Source: a virus. From it: a DNA stretch of 24,482 bases. Position 1 is the first letter of the stretch. Each line of letters starts with the position of its first letter. The stretch lies in IMG/VR virus record IMGVR_UViG_3300044823_000543, positions 1 through 24,482 of that record. The stretch is one strand, 5' to 3'. This document shows, in pieces, positions 2,107 to 24,482 of this stretch. The notes under the pieces were generated by a model. That model made no database searches, was not told the DNA's origin, and was given only the letters and a program-made list of their open reading frames with translations. Made by a program: the position numbers and the translations under genes.

Positions 2107-2896
2107 CTTCCCCCGGCAACGGAATCTGTAGCCCCAAAAACTCGTTGGCCCAACGTCTACCCAGAATAATCGCACTAACGAGGCTGTTACTGATACCATA
2201 GATACGAGCAAGCCACACTTGACGAAAGATCCGAGCAAGTAAGCGAATCTCAATAACATCTTCGACCGATAGAATGGATTGCCTTCTTCTGGCGGCAATC
2301 ATGTTGAGTCGTTGAATCGGTGTTGCTGGTACTCCGGAATGAGACGCACTAATCTTTGCGCGAGTAGATTGTGAGACTGGTCGGCCACGAAGGCCTTCGG
2401 AAATCTTTAATCGCGCGACTAGAGTATGTCCATGACCCAAATGAGCTTGCCGGTTCCTCTCCTTGGCTTCCTCAGAATGGTGTTTGCCTTTCATATGAGC
2501 AATACCACCGTTGTCAAAATACTTTTTAGAAGCTGCCTTATTACCGATACCTATCTTGGCTCGCGTCGCTGCGGAATGCTTGTAGCTTGTCAAACCATCT
2601 CCACCATCCGTAAGATTCACAAGTTTACAGCCGCGGGCACGATATAGCTTAATGAAGGTTTTTTCCCAAAACTGCCAGTTATCTTTACTCACTTCTTTCA
2701 GAATTGATAATCCAGGCTTTAATCCTTGACGCTTAAGCTTTGCTATCCAGCGGCAACGATAAAAGTTGTACTTCTCTCCCCAAATGTGGGCATTAAAACG
2801 ACGCTTCGGGTTATCAGCCTTGCCTACATAACGAACTGCGCCCGTGATGGGGTCGTGAAGTGCGTATATGAAAGTAGTGTTAGATGACAACCTCAT
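2096..2896 (-). CDS. Free-standing GIY-YIG homing endonuclease with NUMOD3 motif
   Basis: The N-terminus has a GIY-YIG nuclease core: FIYALHDPITGAVRYVGK (residues 9-26, the two strands of the motif), the conserved Arg in PKRRFNAHI (about 30-38) and a Glu in FWEKTFI (about 77-83). It is followed by TDGGDG (about 97-102) and a NUMOD3-type DNA-binding repeat region (about 104-185) rich in Ser, Lys and Arg, with repeated S-x-x-T-R-A-K-I patterns (SAATRAKIG, SQSTRAKIS). The C-terminus (about 215-255) looks like a helix-turn-helix. Such enzymes spread their own gene into related phages. No intron is apparent around it. Its first 17 nt overlap the 3' end of the NinB-like gene and its end overlaps the opposing DUF4177-like gene, as expected for a mobile insertion squeezed between genes. 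Confidence 0.88.
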   Translation of the reverse strand: MRLSSNTTFIYALHDPITGAVRYVGKADNPKRRFNAHIWGEKYNFYRCRWIAKLKRQGLKPGLSILKEVSKDNWQFWEKTFIKLYRARGCKLVNLTDGGDGLTSYKHSAATRAKIGIGNKAASKKYFDNGGIAHMKGKHHSEEAKERNRQAHLGHGHTLVARLKISEGLRGRPVSQSTRAKISASHSGVPATPIQRLNMIAARRRQSILSVEDVIEIRLLARIFRQVWLARIYGISNSLVSAIILGRRWANEFLGLQIPLPGEVTV

Positions 2897-3272: not shown

Positions 3273-3550
3273 TTGATAGTGCTTAATGATTTACGTGGAC
3301 GGCCTCGCTTCTTTGGCACGATAGCTTTATCTAGTTGCTGTGCCAGGTCTATTGTCTTCCTCTTCTCCTGTGCCAGTTCGTCCCGCAACTTTTCAGCCTC
3401 TGACTTTCCAGGAAAGTAGTTGCCATGTCCATTTAAACAATAAAACTCTTCATGGTCTTCCCTACGCAGGGAAAAAAAGGATGGATTGGCGGCGATGACA
3501 ACCGCACAGCAGGCACATGTTATCGTTTCCATTTCGACTTCAACTTTCAT
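3269..3550 (-). CDS. Hypothetical zinc-finger and coiled-coil protein (93 aa)
   Basis: Cys12, Cys14 and Cys15 (TCACCAVV), then Cys38 and His42 in EEFYCLNGHGNYFPGKSEAEKL, form a plausible metal site. This is followed by a charged coiled coil (about 50-75) and a basic tail PKKRGRPRKS that resembles an AT-hook. It looks like a widespread phage protein of unknown function. It overlaps the upstream nuclease stop by 4 nt and the downstream NinB-like start by 4 nt, so the three genes are an operon. The leader is TTAACG followed by 8 nt and ATG, without Shine-Dalgarno. Confidence 0.7.
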   Translation of the reverse strand: MKVEVEMETITCACCAVVIAANPSFFSLRREDHEEFYCLNGHGNYFPGKSEAEKLRDELAQEKRKTIDLAQQLDKAIVPKKRGRPRKSLSTIK

Positions 3551-4044
3551 TGTCGTTGCGTTAATTCTTTAGCCACCCGCCAAAACGGCGTGGAGTGTTC
3601 CTTGCAAACTTTCCAATCAAGCAGCATTCCCATGTTGCCAGCTTGGTCACCTCCGGCAACGTGCTTAAATGTATACTGCTCGGCAAACGTGCCGTCGCCC
3701 CTCGCTACTCGGTTCTTGGCGTTGTAGAGGGTTCTTAAATGGTCTACGTCAAAGACATCAAGTAGCAGGCGGCCGACAATCATATTGCTGGCTTTGGTGT
3801 TGCGGAGAGTCTTCTCTTCAACGAAGATTCGGCCGGTGATGCCGCTCTGCCAATCCATCTTTGCCTCAAAAAAGGTTTCCTGCCCTTCTGGGCCGGCGTA
3901 TAGGTCGTAGTCCTCACGCCGTGGGTCATCGGTGCCGCTGGCCGGATTGTAGCCGACAGATATCCCAAGGTTGTGAAGGTGGGAGGCTATAAGGATTTCT
4001 AGGGGTGCGCCGCGCTGGTCGCGGTCGAAAGTGAATTTGTTCGT
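3547..4044 (-). CDS. PD-(D/E)xK-type nuclease, no canonical start codon
   Basis: The only ATG in frame (3856-3858) falls in the middle of the conserved core, so an annotation starting there would miss the N-terminal 62 residues. The frame stays open upstream to TAA at 4087-4089. It encodes FDRDQRGAP, LEILIASHLHNLGISVGYN, then DDPRREDYDLYAG with the metal-binding Asp, and TFFEAKMDW with Glu-x-Lys, followed by GRIFVEEKTLRNTKAS. This Asp...Glu-x-Lys...GxIFVE layout is typical of phage restriction-like endonucleases. No ATG, GTG or TTG exists in frame upstream of residue 63. I set the start at ACG4042-4044, which gives N-K-F-T-F-D as a natural N-terminus and lies 9 nt after a TTAACC. Total about 165 residues. 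Near-cognate start or a substitution at the start codon are the two explanations. Confidence 0.68.
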   Translation of the reverse strand, partial: TNKFTFDRDQRGAPLEILIASHLHNLGISVGYNPASGTDDPRREDYDLYAGPEGQETFFEAKMDWQSGITGRIFVEEKTLRNTKASNMIVGRLLLDVFDVDHLRTLYNAKNRVARGDGTFAEQYTFKHVAGGDQAGNMGMLLDWKVCKEHSTPFWRVAKELTQRQ

Positions 4045-4211
4045 AGGGATAAAGGTTAATGAATCTGCTAAGCAAGAGCCACAAGTTTAGTACGAAGCGA
4101 CCAAGCTCTATTCTTGTGTACTCTCTAGGGTACTTCTTACGGCTTCCGAGCGACGCCACCCGTCCCTATGATTCTTGCGAACCATGAAGCCTTGAATTTC
4201 CGCCCTGCTGG

Positions 4212-4319
4212 TTAGGCAAAGCTCACGCCCTTGCTTAACAGACTGTCCACCTTAAGTTTATCAGGCTGGAAAACGCCGTCAAATGGCTTAGGTATGCGGA
4301 GTGCGGCGGGGTTATCCAC
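4212..4319 (-). CDS. Possible 35-aa ORF starting GTG inside a DnaA-box-like site
   Basis: A short ORF reads M-D-N-P-A-A-L-R-I-P-K-P-F-D and ends K-G-V-S-F-A. Composition is protein-like, but there is no Shine-Dalgarno and no family I recognise. It starts just downstream of the hairpin terminator of the membrane-protein gene. Nothing else convincing lies between 4087 and 4311; a 25-codon ORF at about 4104-4182 is too weak to call. Confidence 0.2.
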   Translation of the reverse strand: MDNPAALRIPKPFDGVFQPDKLKVDSLLSKGVSFA

Positions 4320-4320
4320 A
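4311..4320 (-). promoter_or_regulatory. DnaA-box-like element TGTGGATAAC (copy 1)
   Basis: Exact 10-bp match to the other two copies at 6217 and 12597. The 9-mer TTATCCACA is the consensus DnaA box of many bacteria. On the minus strand it reads TGTGGATAAC toward the nuclease operon. It sits against the U-tract of the neighbouring terminator. Confidence 0.5.
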
Positions 4321-4365
4321 GAAAAAGAAAACCCCGCGTTCGGGTTTCCCTTACTAGCGGGGTTT
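4321..4365 (-). terminator. Rho-independent terminator of the 64-aa membrane-protein gene
   Basis: A 9-bp perfect stem AAACCCCGC (4329-4337) with GCGGGGTTT (4357-4365) is followed, in the minus direction, by TTTTCTTTTTC. It lies 32 nt after the stop of the 4398-4592 gene, so it closes a one-gene transcript. Confidence 0.75.
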
Positions 4366-4397
4366 GTGGCGCAATTGGTATTGTTTTTAGTCTAAGC

Positions 4398-4592
4398 TTA
4401 CAGGCCAGTTAAGAAAATAAATATAACCAACCTGTGTATTCCCAACAAAAAACATCCAAACAGCAACGCCCTAATTATAATCGCCTCAATTCGAGGAAAT
4501 AACTTAACAAGCTTCTCAATTTGGGAGATAGCAACAATAATTTTTTTAACAACATTTTCAAAAAGATAAATGGTCTCTTCTTGCTGTTGCAT
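4398..4592 (-). CDS. Small membrane protein of unknown function (64 aa)
   Basis: The protein starts M-Q-Q-Q-E-E, has an amphipathic helix (about 10-35, ENVVKKIIVAISQIEKLVKLF) and a strongly hydrophobic C-terminal half (about 37-63, IIIRALLFGCFLLGIHRLVIFIF) that should span the membrane once or twice. No family recognised. The region is more AT-rich than its surroundings. ATG at 4590-4592 is preferred over TTG at 4596-4598, because a good promoter puts the transcription start at about 4592-4594, so the messenger would be essentially leaderless. It has its own terminator, so it is an independent unit, possibly a lysogeny or superinfection gene; that role is a guess. Confidence 0.55.
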   Translation of the reverse strand: MQQQEETIYLFENVVKKIIVAISQIEKLVKLFPRIEAIIIRALLFGCFLLGIHRLVIFIFLTGL

Positions 4593-4599
4593 GGCCAAG

Positions 4600-4628: not shown

Positions 4629-4684
4629 CCCTTTTTCCCTTCCAGATACCATCCAAAAAGCCTGTCGGAAAACAGACTGCTGGC

Positions 4685-5505
4685 TTGACGGCGGTCGCTC
4701 CGTTTTTTCCCGGCGCCGTCTCCCCTTAACTGTCAGCCGGGTCCCGGTCGGGCCTGGCCGCTGTCCCCGGCAGCGCAAAAGGGTTTCGCATAACGCTGCC
4801 GGCGGTCTTCATTTGGATTTCCCATACCAGACCCTGCTACCGCGGCGGCAGGGCACGCCGAACCAATGAAGTCCCCACGCTTTAAGTTGGCATCCAGCCG
4901 GGGGCGCGTGAGGTTCGCCTCACCACACCGGCCAGTATTCTGGTTTTACAAAAACAAAAACGCCGGCCCGCGCTACTGGCGCAGGATGGCGTTGCTGGTT
5001 TCGTATGGGGGTGTTGTTGATTTTGGTTGCATGGACGTTGGCTTTATGGATCTCTATTTCAGGGTGGACTCGGCACGTTTTATCGCCAGACCGAAGCCTT
5101 AGCTTTCGTTACCGAGCCACCCCTTTACGGCGGCTAGCCCAGGCCTTGGTCACGTAATGAGTGCTCCTCATAGTCGTGCGGTACTCTGGACCCCGACGGC
5201 CAGGTTTCCTTTTGGCTCCCGCAGGTGCCCCGTTGGAAGTGCGGTGTCTCGCGAGACTCACCGGCAGGGTTCGCTGTGGCCCGTACCCTGGCGCGGGCTG
5301 TATGCTTCCGTCGCTACTACCTGCACAATCGGAGCCGGAAGCGTTTCACTAGCCAGTTAGAAGCCTGGCCCATAGAACACCTCCGTGGCGAAGAGTCGCC
5401 GTCAACAGTATACGCCAAACTCGTCAGAAATGTTCAAATAAAAACTCCTGTAGTCGAGGGGCCAACTTGCGATTGGAACACCCCCCAACTACAGGGGTCT
5501 TTTTG
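4685..5505 (+). ncRNA. Candidate large structured non-coding RNA (about 820 nt)
   Basis: No credible protein gene is present here; the ORFs have non-protein-like composition and weak starts. Instead there is a dense set of complementary helices. A long-range 9-bp stem TTGACGGCG (4685-4693) with CGCCGTCAA (5397-5405) closes the domain. Inside are 4767-4775/4794-4802 (9 bp), 4832-4837/4848-4853, 4908-4913/4918-4923 (loop TTCG), 4930-4935/4940-4945, 5062-5073/5112-5122 (11 bp with one bulge), 5159-5164/5181-5186, 5198-5202/5213-5217, 5242-5251/5252-5263, 5275-5283/5294-5302, 5304-5310/5336-5342, 5352-5356/5365-5369 and 5387-5391/5396-5400. Several helices need G-U pairs on the + strand that would be A-C mismatches on the minus strand, which indicates + transcription. 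The terminator at 5444-5504 would give the 3' end. No clear + promoter is seen; direct repeats GATACCA at 4602 and 4645 are the only upstream feature. Size and phage context recall the GOLLD and ROOL RNA classes, but I cannot assign it to either. Confidence 0.6.
5444..5504. terminator. Bidirectional terminator between the ncRNA candidate and the 229-aa gene
   Basis: Stem ACTCCTGTAGT (5444-5454) with ACTACAGGGGT (5488-5498), extended inward by GGGG/CCCC and CCAA/TTGG. It is followed on + by CTTTTT and on minus by TTTTTATTT. The + strand pairs fully using one U-G, while the minus strand has a C-A mismatch. It would end the + strand RNA and the minus-strand gene at 5565. Loop bases 5463-5470 are also complementary to 5505-5512. 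Confidence 0.75.
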
Positions 5506-5564
5506 CAAGTTGATTGCTGTCCGAACTCATTGTGAGGTGAAGTGTAGCAGGTCTACAAAAGTTG

Positions 5565-6254
5565 TCAAGGGACCCAGTTTATATTATGGAACATCGTGAT
5601 AATTCCCCAACCGTATTGAAGGATTTGCAGCGCAAAGAACTGCTTTGTCTCGGCGCTCCTTGTTGTCAGGTCATAGTTGTTTATAACCCATGAGGAAGGG
5701 TGAATGAGTTTGCAGGAAAACTTCCAAGTAAGCGATTCCTGCCCCTCAGATGGCTCAACACGGACTCGCTTCGGGTCGGATACCGGCAGCAACTCCATTT
5801 CCGGAGTGTCGGGATGTGCCTTCTGCATCCGCTCGTACAGCTCGTTCATATCGATATTAGATTCGTTTAAGAAACGTGTAGCATTCGCCTCGCTCTCAGA
5901 GACGAATTTGGTCCAGAACTTCGATTCAATCAGATTCCGCATGATCCATGCCAGCAGGTCAGCCTCGGCTTCAACCCAGAAGACGGCCCGGTAGAGCTGC
6001 GTGTCGAGGTAGCGCAGTATACGGTATCTGGCTATTTGCTGGTCGGAGCGTTTGTCTTCAGCAAAGAGCTTTTTCAGCACGTCGCGGCAGATTTTGATTT
6101 CCTGCCGAAACCTCTCTGTGCTGTAATCTTTCGCAAGTTCAGAAATTGCGGTGATGTGGTACGGATACTCTTCCTCAGGCATTTCCATTAAATTAAAGGT
6201 ATCACAAAACAAAGACTGTGGATAACTTTCGTCCATATCACCAAAACCCAACAT
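5565..6254 (-). CDS. Hypothetical protein, up to 229 aa
   Basis: No family recognised. The protein is mostly helical and acidic in its middle (KICRDVLKKLFAEDKRSDQQ, EAEADLLAWIMRNLIESKF, ESNIDMNELYERMQKAHPDTPEMELLP) and has a beta-rich C-terminal third (about 170-229) with KFSCKLIHPSSWVINNYD and LQYGWGIITMF. The longest start is ATG6254. ATG6188 (M-E-M-P-E-E-E-Y-P-Y) is a good alternative, since it follows a G-poor leader like those of other genes here and would free the DnaA-box-like site at 6217-6226 from the coding region. It is a single gene on minus, convergent with the ncRNA candidate and divergent from the + operon at 6332. Confidence 0.6.
   Translation of the reverse strand: MLGFGDMDESYPQSLFCDTFNLMEMPEEEYPYHITAISELAKDYSTERFRQEIKICRDVLKKLFAEDKRSDQQIARYRILRYLDTQLYRAVFWVEAEADLLAWIMRNLIESKFWTKFVSESEANATRFLNESNIDMNELYERMQKAHPDTPEMELLPVSDPKRVRVEPSEGQESLTWKFSCKLIHPSSWVINNYDLTTRSAETKQFFALQILQYGWGIITMFHNINWVP
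6217..6226 (+). promoter_or_regulatory. DnaA-box-like element TGTGGATAAC (copy 2)
   Basis: Identical to the elements at 4311 and 12597. It points toward the + strand operon whose first ATG is at 6332 and overlaps the 5' end of the divergent 5565-6254 frame. Confidence 0.5.
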
Positions 6255-23516: not shown

Positions 23517-24482
23517 CTAGGCGGTGAACTTGACGAATGCAGTCGCGCCGAATTTGCGGCGTTCATCGGCAACTTTCGCGCCGTAAACGAACAAATCCTT
23601 ATACGCTGATCCGAAGTTTCCAATCAGGTCTTCTTCCATTCCGACGTTCAGAGCTTTGTCGGCAAAGGTTAAGAAGTTCCTCTGGCAAGCCAGGACGTGA
23701 TAACCGTTGGTGTTGTCGCCGGTCAAGCGGTTGACTTTGAAGACTTTGAAGCCTTCAAGCTCCGTGACCATACCTTTGACTATGAGGTCTTCATAGGCGG
23801 CGGGCACGTTCAGCTTGATTTTGGTGTCTTTCAACAGGGCGGTGATACCGGCCGGAGGTAAGAACAAAGCGCGGCCTTCATCAGGCACTTCGTTTTCGTC
23901 CAAAACCTGTTTAAGGCTGGTAACCATGTCGAGCAGGTACATGCCCGTGGTGCTGTTGTCGATGGTTCTTACAGTCGCGGCTTGGATGGTATAAGTTGCG
24001 CCAGCGCCGATAGCGCCGCCGTCGTATCCGGCTGTCGCGTCGTCGGTGTCGTTGACAATGGTGATGGAGGTGGTGCTGGTGTAGGTGGCTATGCGATACC
24101 ACTTGGTGTGGCCGGTCGCCTTAAACGGAAGGCCTACCATAGTGGCGGCAAAGGTAGTGCCGTTGCCCGAGACAACGCCGGTGGTCACATCAACGGTGAC
24201 GGTTCCGGTTGTGTAATCGGTGCCGACCCAGTTGCCGGCTGCCGCTTTGGTGTACAAGCCAAGCAAGTACTTCATGATGTTCTTCCGCCGTTCGTTGGCG
24301 GTCTGCTCAAGGACGGTGCCTTTCGGCTCCTTGATGTAACTGGCCCATTTGTTTATCGTCTTTTCACGCCAGTAGAAAGATTTCCACTGGTCGATGGTTA
24401 ACTGACTGTTGACCTCGGTGAGGTCATCCGGGGAGAGGTTGGCCCCGGTATAGGTCTGTTCCGAGAGACGGGTGAAGTTGAG
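23517..24482 (-). CDS. Major coat protein, P22/HK97-like, 5' end outside window
   Basis: The frame is open to the right edge, so an internal ATG at 24275 is not the start: upstream residues (TRLSEQTYTGANLSPDDLTEVNSQL, then DQWKSFYWREKTINKW) are typical of P22-like coat N-terminal regions. Downstream are helical DMVTSLKQVLDENEVPDEGRALFLPP, the strand-turn KVFKVNRLTGDN, and the final part QRNFLTFADKALNVGMEED...LFVYGAKVADERRKFGA. A Thr/Gly-rich beta domain (about residues 90-160 of the visible part, GTVTVDVTTGVVSGNGTTF ... GATYTIQ) is inserted in the shell fold, like the I-domain of P22 gp5. Followed by a strong terminator. Confidence 0.75.
   Translation of the reverse strand, partial: LNFTRLSEQTYTGANLSPDDLTEVNSQLTIDQWKSFYWREKTINKWASYIKEPKGTVLEQTANERRKNIMKYLLGLYTKAAAGNWVGTDYTTGTVTVDVTTGVVSGNGTTFAATMVGLPFKATGHTKWYRIATYTSTTSITIVNDTDDATAGYDGGAIGAGATYTIQAATVRTIDNSTTGMYLLDMVTSLKQVLDENEVPDEGRALFLPPAGITALLKDTKIKLNVPAAYEDLIVKGMVTELEGFKVFKVNRLTGDNTNGYHVLACQRNFLTFADKALNVGMEEDLIGNFGSAYKDLFVYGAKVADERRKFGATAFVKFTA

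Follow-up and report, generated by a model that had tools for sequence, protein, structure and literature searches.

New classes of structured RNA are rare. Dual-function RNAs such as RNAIII/hld and SgrS/SgrT are free-standing transcripts that act as a structured RNA and also as the mRNA of a very short protein, and tmRNA combines pseudoknots with an internal short ORF. GOLLD and ROOL are pseudoknotted structured RNAs of unknown function, 580–800 nt in length, found in phages and prophages, and their structures have been described (PMC12286853). Short conserved ORFs lying over covarying RNA structure have been reported as uORFC-6-1 and other uORF candidate motifs upstream of hflX and other genes (PMC8632094), while TnaC is a short leader peptide able to stall ribosomes (PMC8429421).

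The RNA class described here is previously uncatalogued and is common to phages and some Acidobacteriota soil bacteria. Like GOLLD and ROOL it is phage-encoded, structured, and pseudoknotted; unlike them, it is only about 450 nt long, contains a conserved 18-codon ORF, has no sequence or covariance-model match to either, lacks nearby tRNA genes, and has most of its known members in Acidobacteriota genomes. Its outline recalls the dual-function RNAs, in that a predicted promoter, a Shine-Dalgarno (SD) sequence, a coding signal, and covariation, all read from sequence, point to a candidate single transcript holding both a structured RNA and a very short ORF. However, it has no sequence relation to RNAIII/hld or SgrS/SgrT, and its ORF codons, unlike theirs, form the arms of a helix and a pseudoknot in a conserved pseudoknotted domain. 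Pseudoknots and an internal short ORF are shared with tmRNA, whereas the new RNA has no tRNA-like domain and its ORF possesses its own SD and start codon. As in the uORF motifs and TnaC, a short conserved ORF overlaps covarying structure and conserved residues lie beside the stop, with an Arg-Leu-Arg stretch in some members as in the uORF motifs; unlike these systems, both situated upstream of a regulated gene, the new RNA has no conserved downstream gene. The embedded ORF, which was missed in the initial annotation, is the most unusual feature of the RNA.

The RNA was found in a 24,482-base IMG/VR virus record (IMGVR_UViG_3300044823_000543; the whole stretch analyzed is termed the window), whose phage genes encode an integrase, NinB-like, Gam-like, and SSB-like proteins, a tape measure, and a major head protein. 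The initial annotation had proposed that positions 4685–5505 encode a plus-strand structured RNA, possibly of a new class, about 820 nt long and comparable to GOLLD and ROOL, that ends at a terminator near 5504, and had suggested an Rfam search and a homologue and covariation analysis as checks. ORF and family checks agreed that this stretch, the G+C content of which is above that of its flanks, lacks a credible long protein gene, and the abundance of local helices was borne out. The strand was not: the plus-strand fold gave z −0.82 against dinucleotide shuffles, with 5 of 20 shuffles equally stable, whereas the minus-strand fold gave z −5.12 with none of 20 as stable. A sliding-window fold scan identified 4881–5040 and 5361–5520 as exceptional, on the minus strand only, and the minus-strand direction is that of the upstream gene (6254–5565) and of most genes leftward. 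A hairpin with a flanking T-run is indeed present at 5440–5504, although the minus-strand reading of this stretch is an H-type pseudoknot and T run with its own promoter. The homologues likewise argue against the plus strand, and together with the fold statistics they rule out a plus-strand RNA ending at 5504. The minus-strand RNA instead probably ends at a terminator at 4993–4949 and is about 450 nt rather than 820 nt in length; the conserved unit comprises only ~5402–5057, plus the terminator in three phage copies, and no similarity to 4945–4657 was found in the relatives examined.

Homologues were sought among related viruses and then in bacterial genomes. With the major head protein (23517–24275) as query, 68 related virus contigs were obtained, and BLASTN of the 4685–5505 segment against 50 of these records returned two clear homologues, in G008 (IMGVR_UViG_3300044823_000222) and G013 (IMGVR_UViG_3300045257_000401). 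Similarity among the three phage copies extends from ~5437 to ~4945 on the minus strand, with the terminator at its end. A covariance model of the 5' domain (R1) matched the two phages with E 1e-77 to 1e-88 and gave no further members in the 50 virus records, while in Acidobacteriota it matched genome G347 (E 1.4e-21) and a further six genomes from the order to which G347 belongs (E 1e-21 to 1e-52). A second model (R2) in a class-level search added three distant members (E 4.6e-11, 2.4e-6, and 7.7e-5), in which the promoter, SD, 3' helix, and 3' end, all outside or beyond the model, can likewise be recognized. The class thus comprises the window and 12 further members: two related IMG/VR phages and ten Acidobacteriota genomes. 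R2 matched G347 alone among 396 genomes phylum-wide and recovered the identical seven genomes when rerun on the order of G347. The class is therefore rare, and its known members all come from a single part of the Acidobacteriota and from its phages. The head protein has relatives on an Acidobacteriaceae contig and on a Thermoanaerobaculia contig of 156 kb, which makes an acidobacterium the probable host of the phage, although bins of other groups contain relatives as well. No homologues were gained by BLASTN against phage GenBank and plasmid collections, by a pattern scan of genome contigs, or by a Gam-protein scan, and motif scans of viral contigs gave, beyond known members, chance matches or none. 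Match L095 is coding sequence, and the weak matches L172–L179, L188, and L195 were not taken as members.

The transcript probably runs from ~5400 to the intrinsic terminator at 4993–4949. The RNA and its immediate surroundings have the following features.

5565–6254, minus strand: upstream protein gene, 229 aa, with a Pfam DUF5677 match below cut-off; part of the neighborhood, not of the RNA
5436–5568, minus strand: separate upstream element, with promoter TTGACA-16-TACACT (5541–5568) and H-type pseudoknot plus T run (5436–5512)
5399–5437, minus strand: predicted RNA promoter, TTGAAC, 19 nt, TATACT, with the −10 at 5407–5412 and an expected start at ~5400
5057–5402, minus strand: conserved structured core, 346 nt, defined by covariance-model matches, covariation, and fold z
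5387–5400, minus strand: P1 hairpin GGCGA/UCGCC at the RNA 5' end; 5 of 5 pairs changed on both sides among 10 members
5371–5384, minus strand: SD GGAGGTG and micro-ORF start codon, conserved with their spacing in most members
5317–5373, minus strand: 18-codon ORF, MGQASNWLVKRFRLRLCR followed by a stop; conserved length, start, and stop, and a coding test
5347–5374, minus strand: P2 hairpin enclosing the start codon; 4 of 9 pairs changed on both sides
5304–5342, minus strand: P3 helix GCUUCCG/CGGAAGC, its 5' arm being ORF codons 11–13; 2 pairs changed on both sides
5281–5292, minus strand: 5' part of PK1, loop GCCAGG (5292–5287), within the P4 hairpin (5279–5298)
5242–5263, minus strand: P5 hairpin; 6 of 8 pairs changed on both sides (helices 8 and 9)
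5216–5239, minus strand: P6 hairpin; 2 of 5 pairs changed on both sides
5193–5204, minus strand: 3' part of PK1, CCUGGCCGUCGG, in which CCUGGC (5204–5199) pairs with the GCCAGG loop
5192–5136, minus strand: variable middle domain
5062–5123, minus strand: 3' closing helix GGGGUGGCUCGGU/ACCGAGUCCACCC, then CCCUGAAA; helix kept with different sequence in L093, L192, L201, and L202
4949–4993, minus strand: intrinsic terminator, common to the three phage copies only

The promoter hexamers and spacing (TTGAAC-N19-TATACT) are also present in L092 and L190, with TTGAAC-N19-CATACT in L194, and other members except L180 have a −10-like hexamer a few bases 5' of the first hairpin. At the other end, most members terminate in CCCUGAAA or a near variant, and an unstructured linker of ~60 nt separates this motif from the terminator. 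The terminator itself, AACGCC..GGCGUUUUUGUUUUUG (also given as AACGCC...GGCGTTTTTGTTTTTG), occurs in the window and L092, with a compensated version in L093; chromosomal copies have no obvious intrinsic terminator.

Conservation of the fold was assessed in a ten-member alignment (A4), which was fitted to the R1 helices, with a structure based on three of the ten rows. Of 52 pairs, 24 showed change on either side of the pair, compared with a shuffle mean of 11.4 (0 of 500 shuffles reached this value), the covariation score was 0.375 compared with 0.206 for shuffles and 0.07–0.09 for slid structures, and 95.1% of cells were paired. Because A4 was fitted to these helices, the two pseudoknots, PK1 and PK2, which lie outside the search model, provide the cleanest test. 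PK1, although absent from the model behind the alignment, is paired in 98.3% of cells, and in L189 it changes from GCCAGG/CCUGGC to GUUAGG/CCUAAC. In PK2, GCAGGUAG, spanning codon 17 through the stop, pairs with CUACUUGC, CUAUCUGC, or CUGCUUGC; this pairing is weaker than PK1, with 87–90% of cells paired and changes that are one-sided, none being on both sides, and while it is retained in most members the window forms only 5 of the 8 pairs. Helices within the model are also preserved through substitution: P3 becomes GUCCCG/CGGGAC in L201, and the closing helix GGGGUGGCUCGGU/ACCGAGUCCACCC becomes GGGUGAUUGGU/ACCAAUCACCC in L093 and GCCGACC/GGUCGGC in L201. Single-sequence fold z of the core over 12 members averaged −2.7 in sense and −2.2 in antisense; as these values are close, the strand call rests on the promoter, SD, ORF, G-U pairs, and terminators. 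A conserved structured RNA with at least one pseudoknot is, on this comparative sequence evidence, well supported, as is its standing as a class.

Turning to the embedded ORF, its products are MGQASNWLVKRFRLRLCR, MGQASNWLVRRFRLRLCR, MSHLYWLVSSFRLQLCR, MAKITSWLVPIFRLRMCR, and MNQLTSWLVPSFRLRLCR, further ones are (GTG)NKLTAYLVKRFRYRLCR, (GTG)TKLTTWLVPNFRLQLCR, and (TTG)SKITSWILASFRFHVCR, and the distant member L202 encodes (GTG)KKFMAYLVKESRHQECR. GGAGGTG followed after 4–5 nt by ATG, GTG, or TTG is present in 8 of the first 10 members and in L202, so that the start codon varies while the SD spacing is near-constant. The product has a charged, arginine-rich C-terminus and ends in Cys-Arg-stop. 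In a coding test the mean BLOSUM score was 2.80, compared with 1.29 (SD 0.34) after column shuffling (0 of 2000 shuffles reached it), and the tested sequences contain no in-frame stop. Among eight members counted, no forward frame 3' of the ORF is open and no reverse frame is open in all eight; a protein gene in another frame is ruled out by stops and frame-breaking indels. The micro-ORF is absent from L180 and L194, has an early TAA in L200, and lacks its usual stop in L201; either the RNA fold persists without the peptide in a few copies, or those copies are decaying. A helix and a pseudoknot each take their 5' arm from the last codons and, since the conserved fold and the coding ORF share nucleotides, translation and folding should exclude each other.

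Comparison with known families placed the RNA outside all of them. No Rfam 15 covariance model, including those of GOLLD, ROOL, OLE, HEARO, and raiA, matched at gathering score, and relaxed searches gave nothing relevant with cut-offs of E 5 (window region and L180) and E 0.5 (other homologues); a known Rfam family is thereby ruled out for 4685–5505. The homologues, the covariation beyond all 500 shuffles, and the absence from Rfam all support the central idea of the initial annotation, that a phage here encodes a structured RNA belonging to a new class. The likeness to GOLLD and ROOL held loosely, as phage-borne structured RNA, and failed in the lack of an Rfam match and of a nearby tRNA gene. 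ARAGORN searches of the window and of the stretches around 9 homologues were negative for tRNA; a tmRNA or tRNA-like element is rejected on the ARAGORN and Rfam results and the lack of a tRNA-like domain. An isolated T-arm-like stretch occurs in the L192 apical loop. An RNA-guided nuclease scaffold, considered for the variable sequence after CCCTGAAA, is rejected because the loci share no nuclease or transposase gene. Sequestration of the SD by CUUCC, possible in the main group, is lost in L200–L202, where P3 covaries.

The genomic context bears on whether the RNA is a leader. No gene common to all loci was found; in L189, L193, and L201 the downstream gene is encoded on the strand opposite to the RNA, and elsewhere the downstream genes bear no relation to one another. 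This absence of a conserved downstream gene indicates a free-standing RNA, not a leader. In most loci it lies 30–470 nt 3' of a same-strand gene. Neighbors include a TIR_2 protein and a Mrr-type endonuclease (Mrr_cat) in L190, a SIR2_2 protein in L201, a DUF433/DUF5615 pair in L189, and a PIN protein in L193; we treat an association with defense or toxin genes as a lead only. G660, the genome of the closest relative, shares the right flank of L190 (from ~7570) but has no match to the RNA itself. Both phages and variable genome islands carry the RNA.

The function of the class can be inferred from this architecture. The most likely reading, to which we give about an even chance, is a free-standing, trans-acting structured RNA of ~450 nt gated by translation of its own micro-ORF. 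Transcription would start from the RNA's own promoter near 5400, and a ribosome initiating on or crossing the 18 codons would hold P2, P3, and PK2 open, the 5' arms of which are the start-codon region, codons 11–13, and codon 17 to the stop, respectively. When initiation fails or the ribosome has departed, P2, P3, and PK2 could close to give a compact form of the RNA. The gate would plausibly operate through arrest at the conserved Cys-Arg-stop or slow release there, and the role of the RNA would probably lie in conflict among phage, host, and other elements. A more specific version, which we regard as improbable, is an RNA sensor of translation that stays open while translated, adopts an active pseudoknotted form upon failed initiation or stalled release, for example at phage takeover, and then takes part in trans, alongside neighboring TIR, SIR2, or PIN effectors, in conflict directed against phages or between them.

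Possibly, though doubtfully, the transcript is instead the message for a micropeptide of 18 aa, a toxin or an effector, and its long structured part controls how it is translated and how stable it is, in the way of hok and other type I toxin mRNAs. Protein-level selection on the ORF, its strong SD, the position of the start codon inside hairpin P2, and the toxin–antitoxin genes adjoining some copies are consistent with this. However, type I toxins are usually hydrophobic peptides, and here the C-terminus is charged and arginine-rich; moreover, the fold outlasts the ORF in L180 and L194, and ~260–340 nt of conserved structure lie 3' of the stop. It is rather unlikely that the RNA is a structured scaffold in the manner of GOLLD and ROOL, forming an RNA-only particle or a ribonucleoprotein, with the ORF a by-product or merely RNA-stabilizing: the intricate pseudoknotted fold carried by phages, the unstructured ~60-nt linker before the terminator, and the low frequency in genomes would suit a scaffold, whereas the strong coding signal, the missing Rfam match, a size half that of these RNAs, and the lack of detected tRNA genes nearby speak against it. 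Least probable is a leader-peptide attenuator, in which stalling on the 18-codon ORF would switch the RNA and terminator of a downstream gene, for although the SD, the short ORF with an RLR-like C-terminus, the overlapping helices, the phage terminator, the published Arg-Leu-Arg uORF motifs upstream of hflX (PMC8632094), and the stalling peptide TnaC (PMC8429421) fit it, the RNA holds no conserved position upstream of a regulated gene, the downstream genes differing and often lying on the opposite strand, and the three phage copies have no common regulated gene 3' of the terminator.

The class combines strong covariation, a phage-to-chromosome distribution, and a conserved micro-ORF in fold-forming nucleotides. 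If the translation-gated reading is true, it would offer a compact test of how a single RNA can report the state of the ribosomes to a cell or phage; even without the gate, the 13 members form a seed set for a new RNA class.

Several observations concern the surroundings of the RNA. The separate upstream element keeps its architecture with different stem sequences in L092 (~1400–1530), L093 (~2210–2340, minus strand), and L098 (~4410–4550, minus strand), and its helices are decayed in L194 (~2350–2480). L194 repeats the trio of the window, with a DUF5677-like protein 66% identical to that of 5565–6254, the decayed pseudoknot, and the RNA; structure prediction for the 229-aa window protein was uninformative (pLDDT 36). 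L098, from phage G002, carries the element without the large RNA, whose position is taken by a zinc-ribbon-like ORF of ~58 aa (4180–4380, minus strand), which makes this a variable cargo position between the pseudoknot and the nuclease gene; in L093 a 113-aa ORF separates element and RNA. In L092 the nuclease-like gene, of 179 aa, aligns as DNA to window positions 4045–3546, where the open frame starts only at 3858, and the window gene (3547–4045, minus strand) may be truncated or frame-shifted at its start. The stretch at 4657–4945 (minus strand) is G+C-rich, with a strong minus-strand fold and its own intrinsic terminator (4655–4677). Further along, a 66-aa ORF (4398–4598, minus strand), the product of which has a hydrophobic C-terminus and no family match, is followed by a strong intrinsic terminator (4322–4364). 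Finally, L194 contains at 2840–2990 a second partial copy of the RNA (promoter, P1, SD, and P2), just past the first, which runs into a 363-aa ORF.
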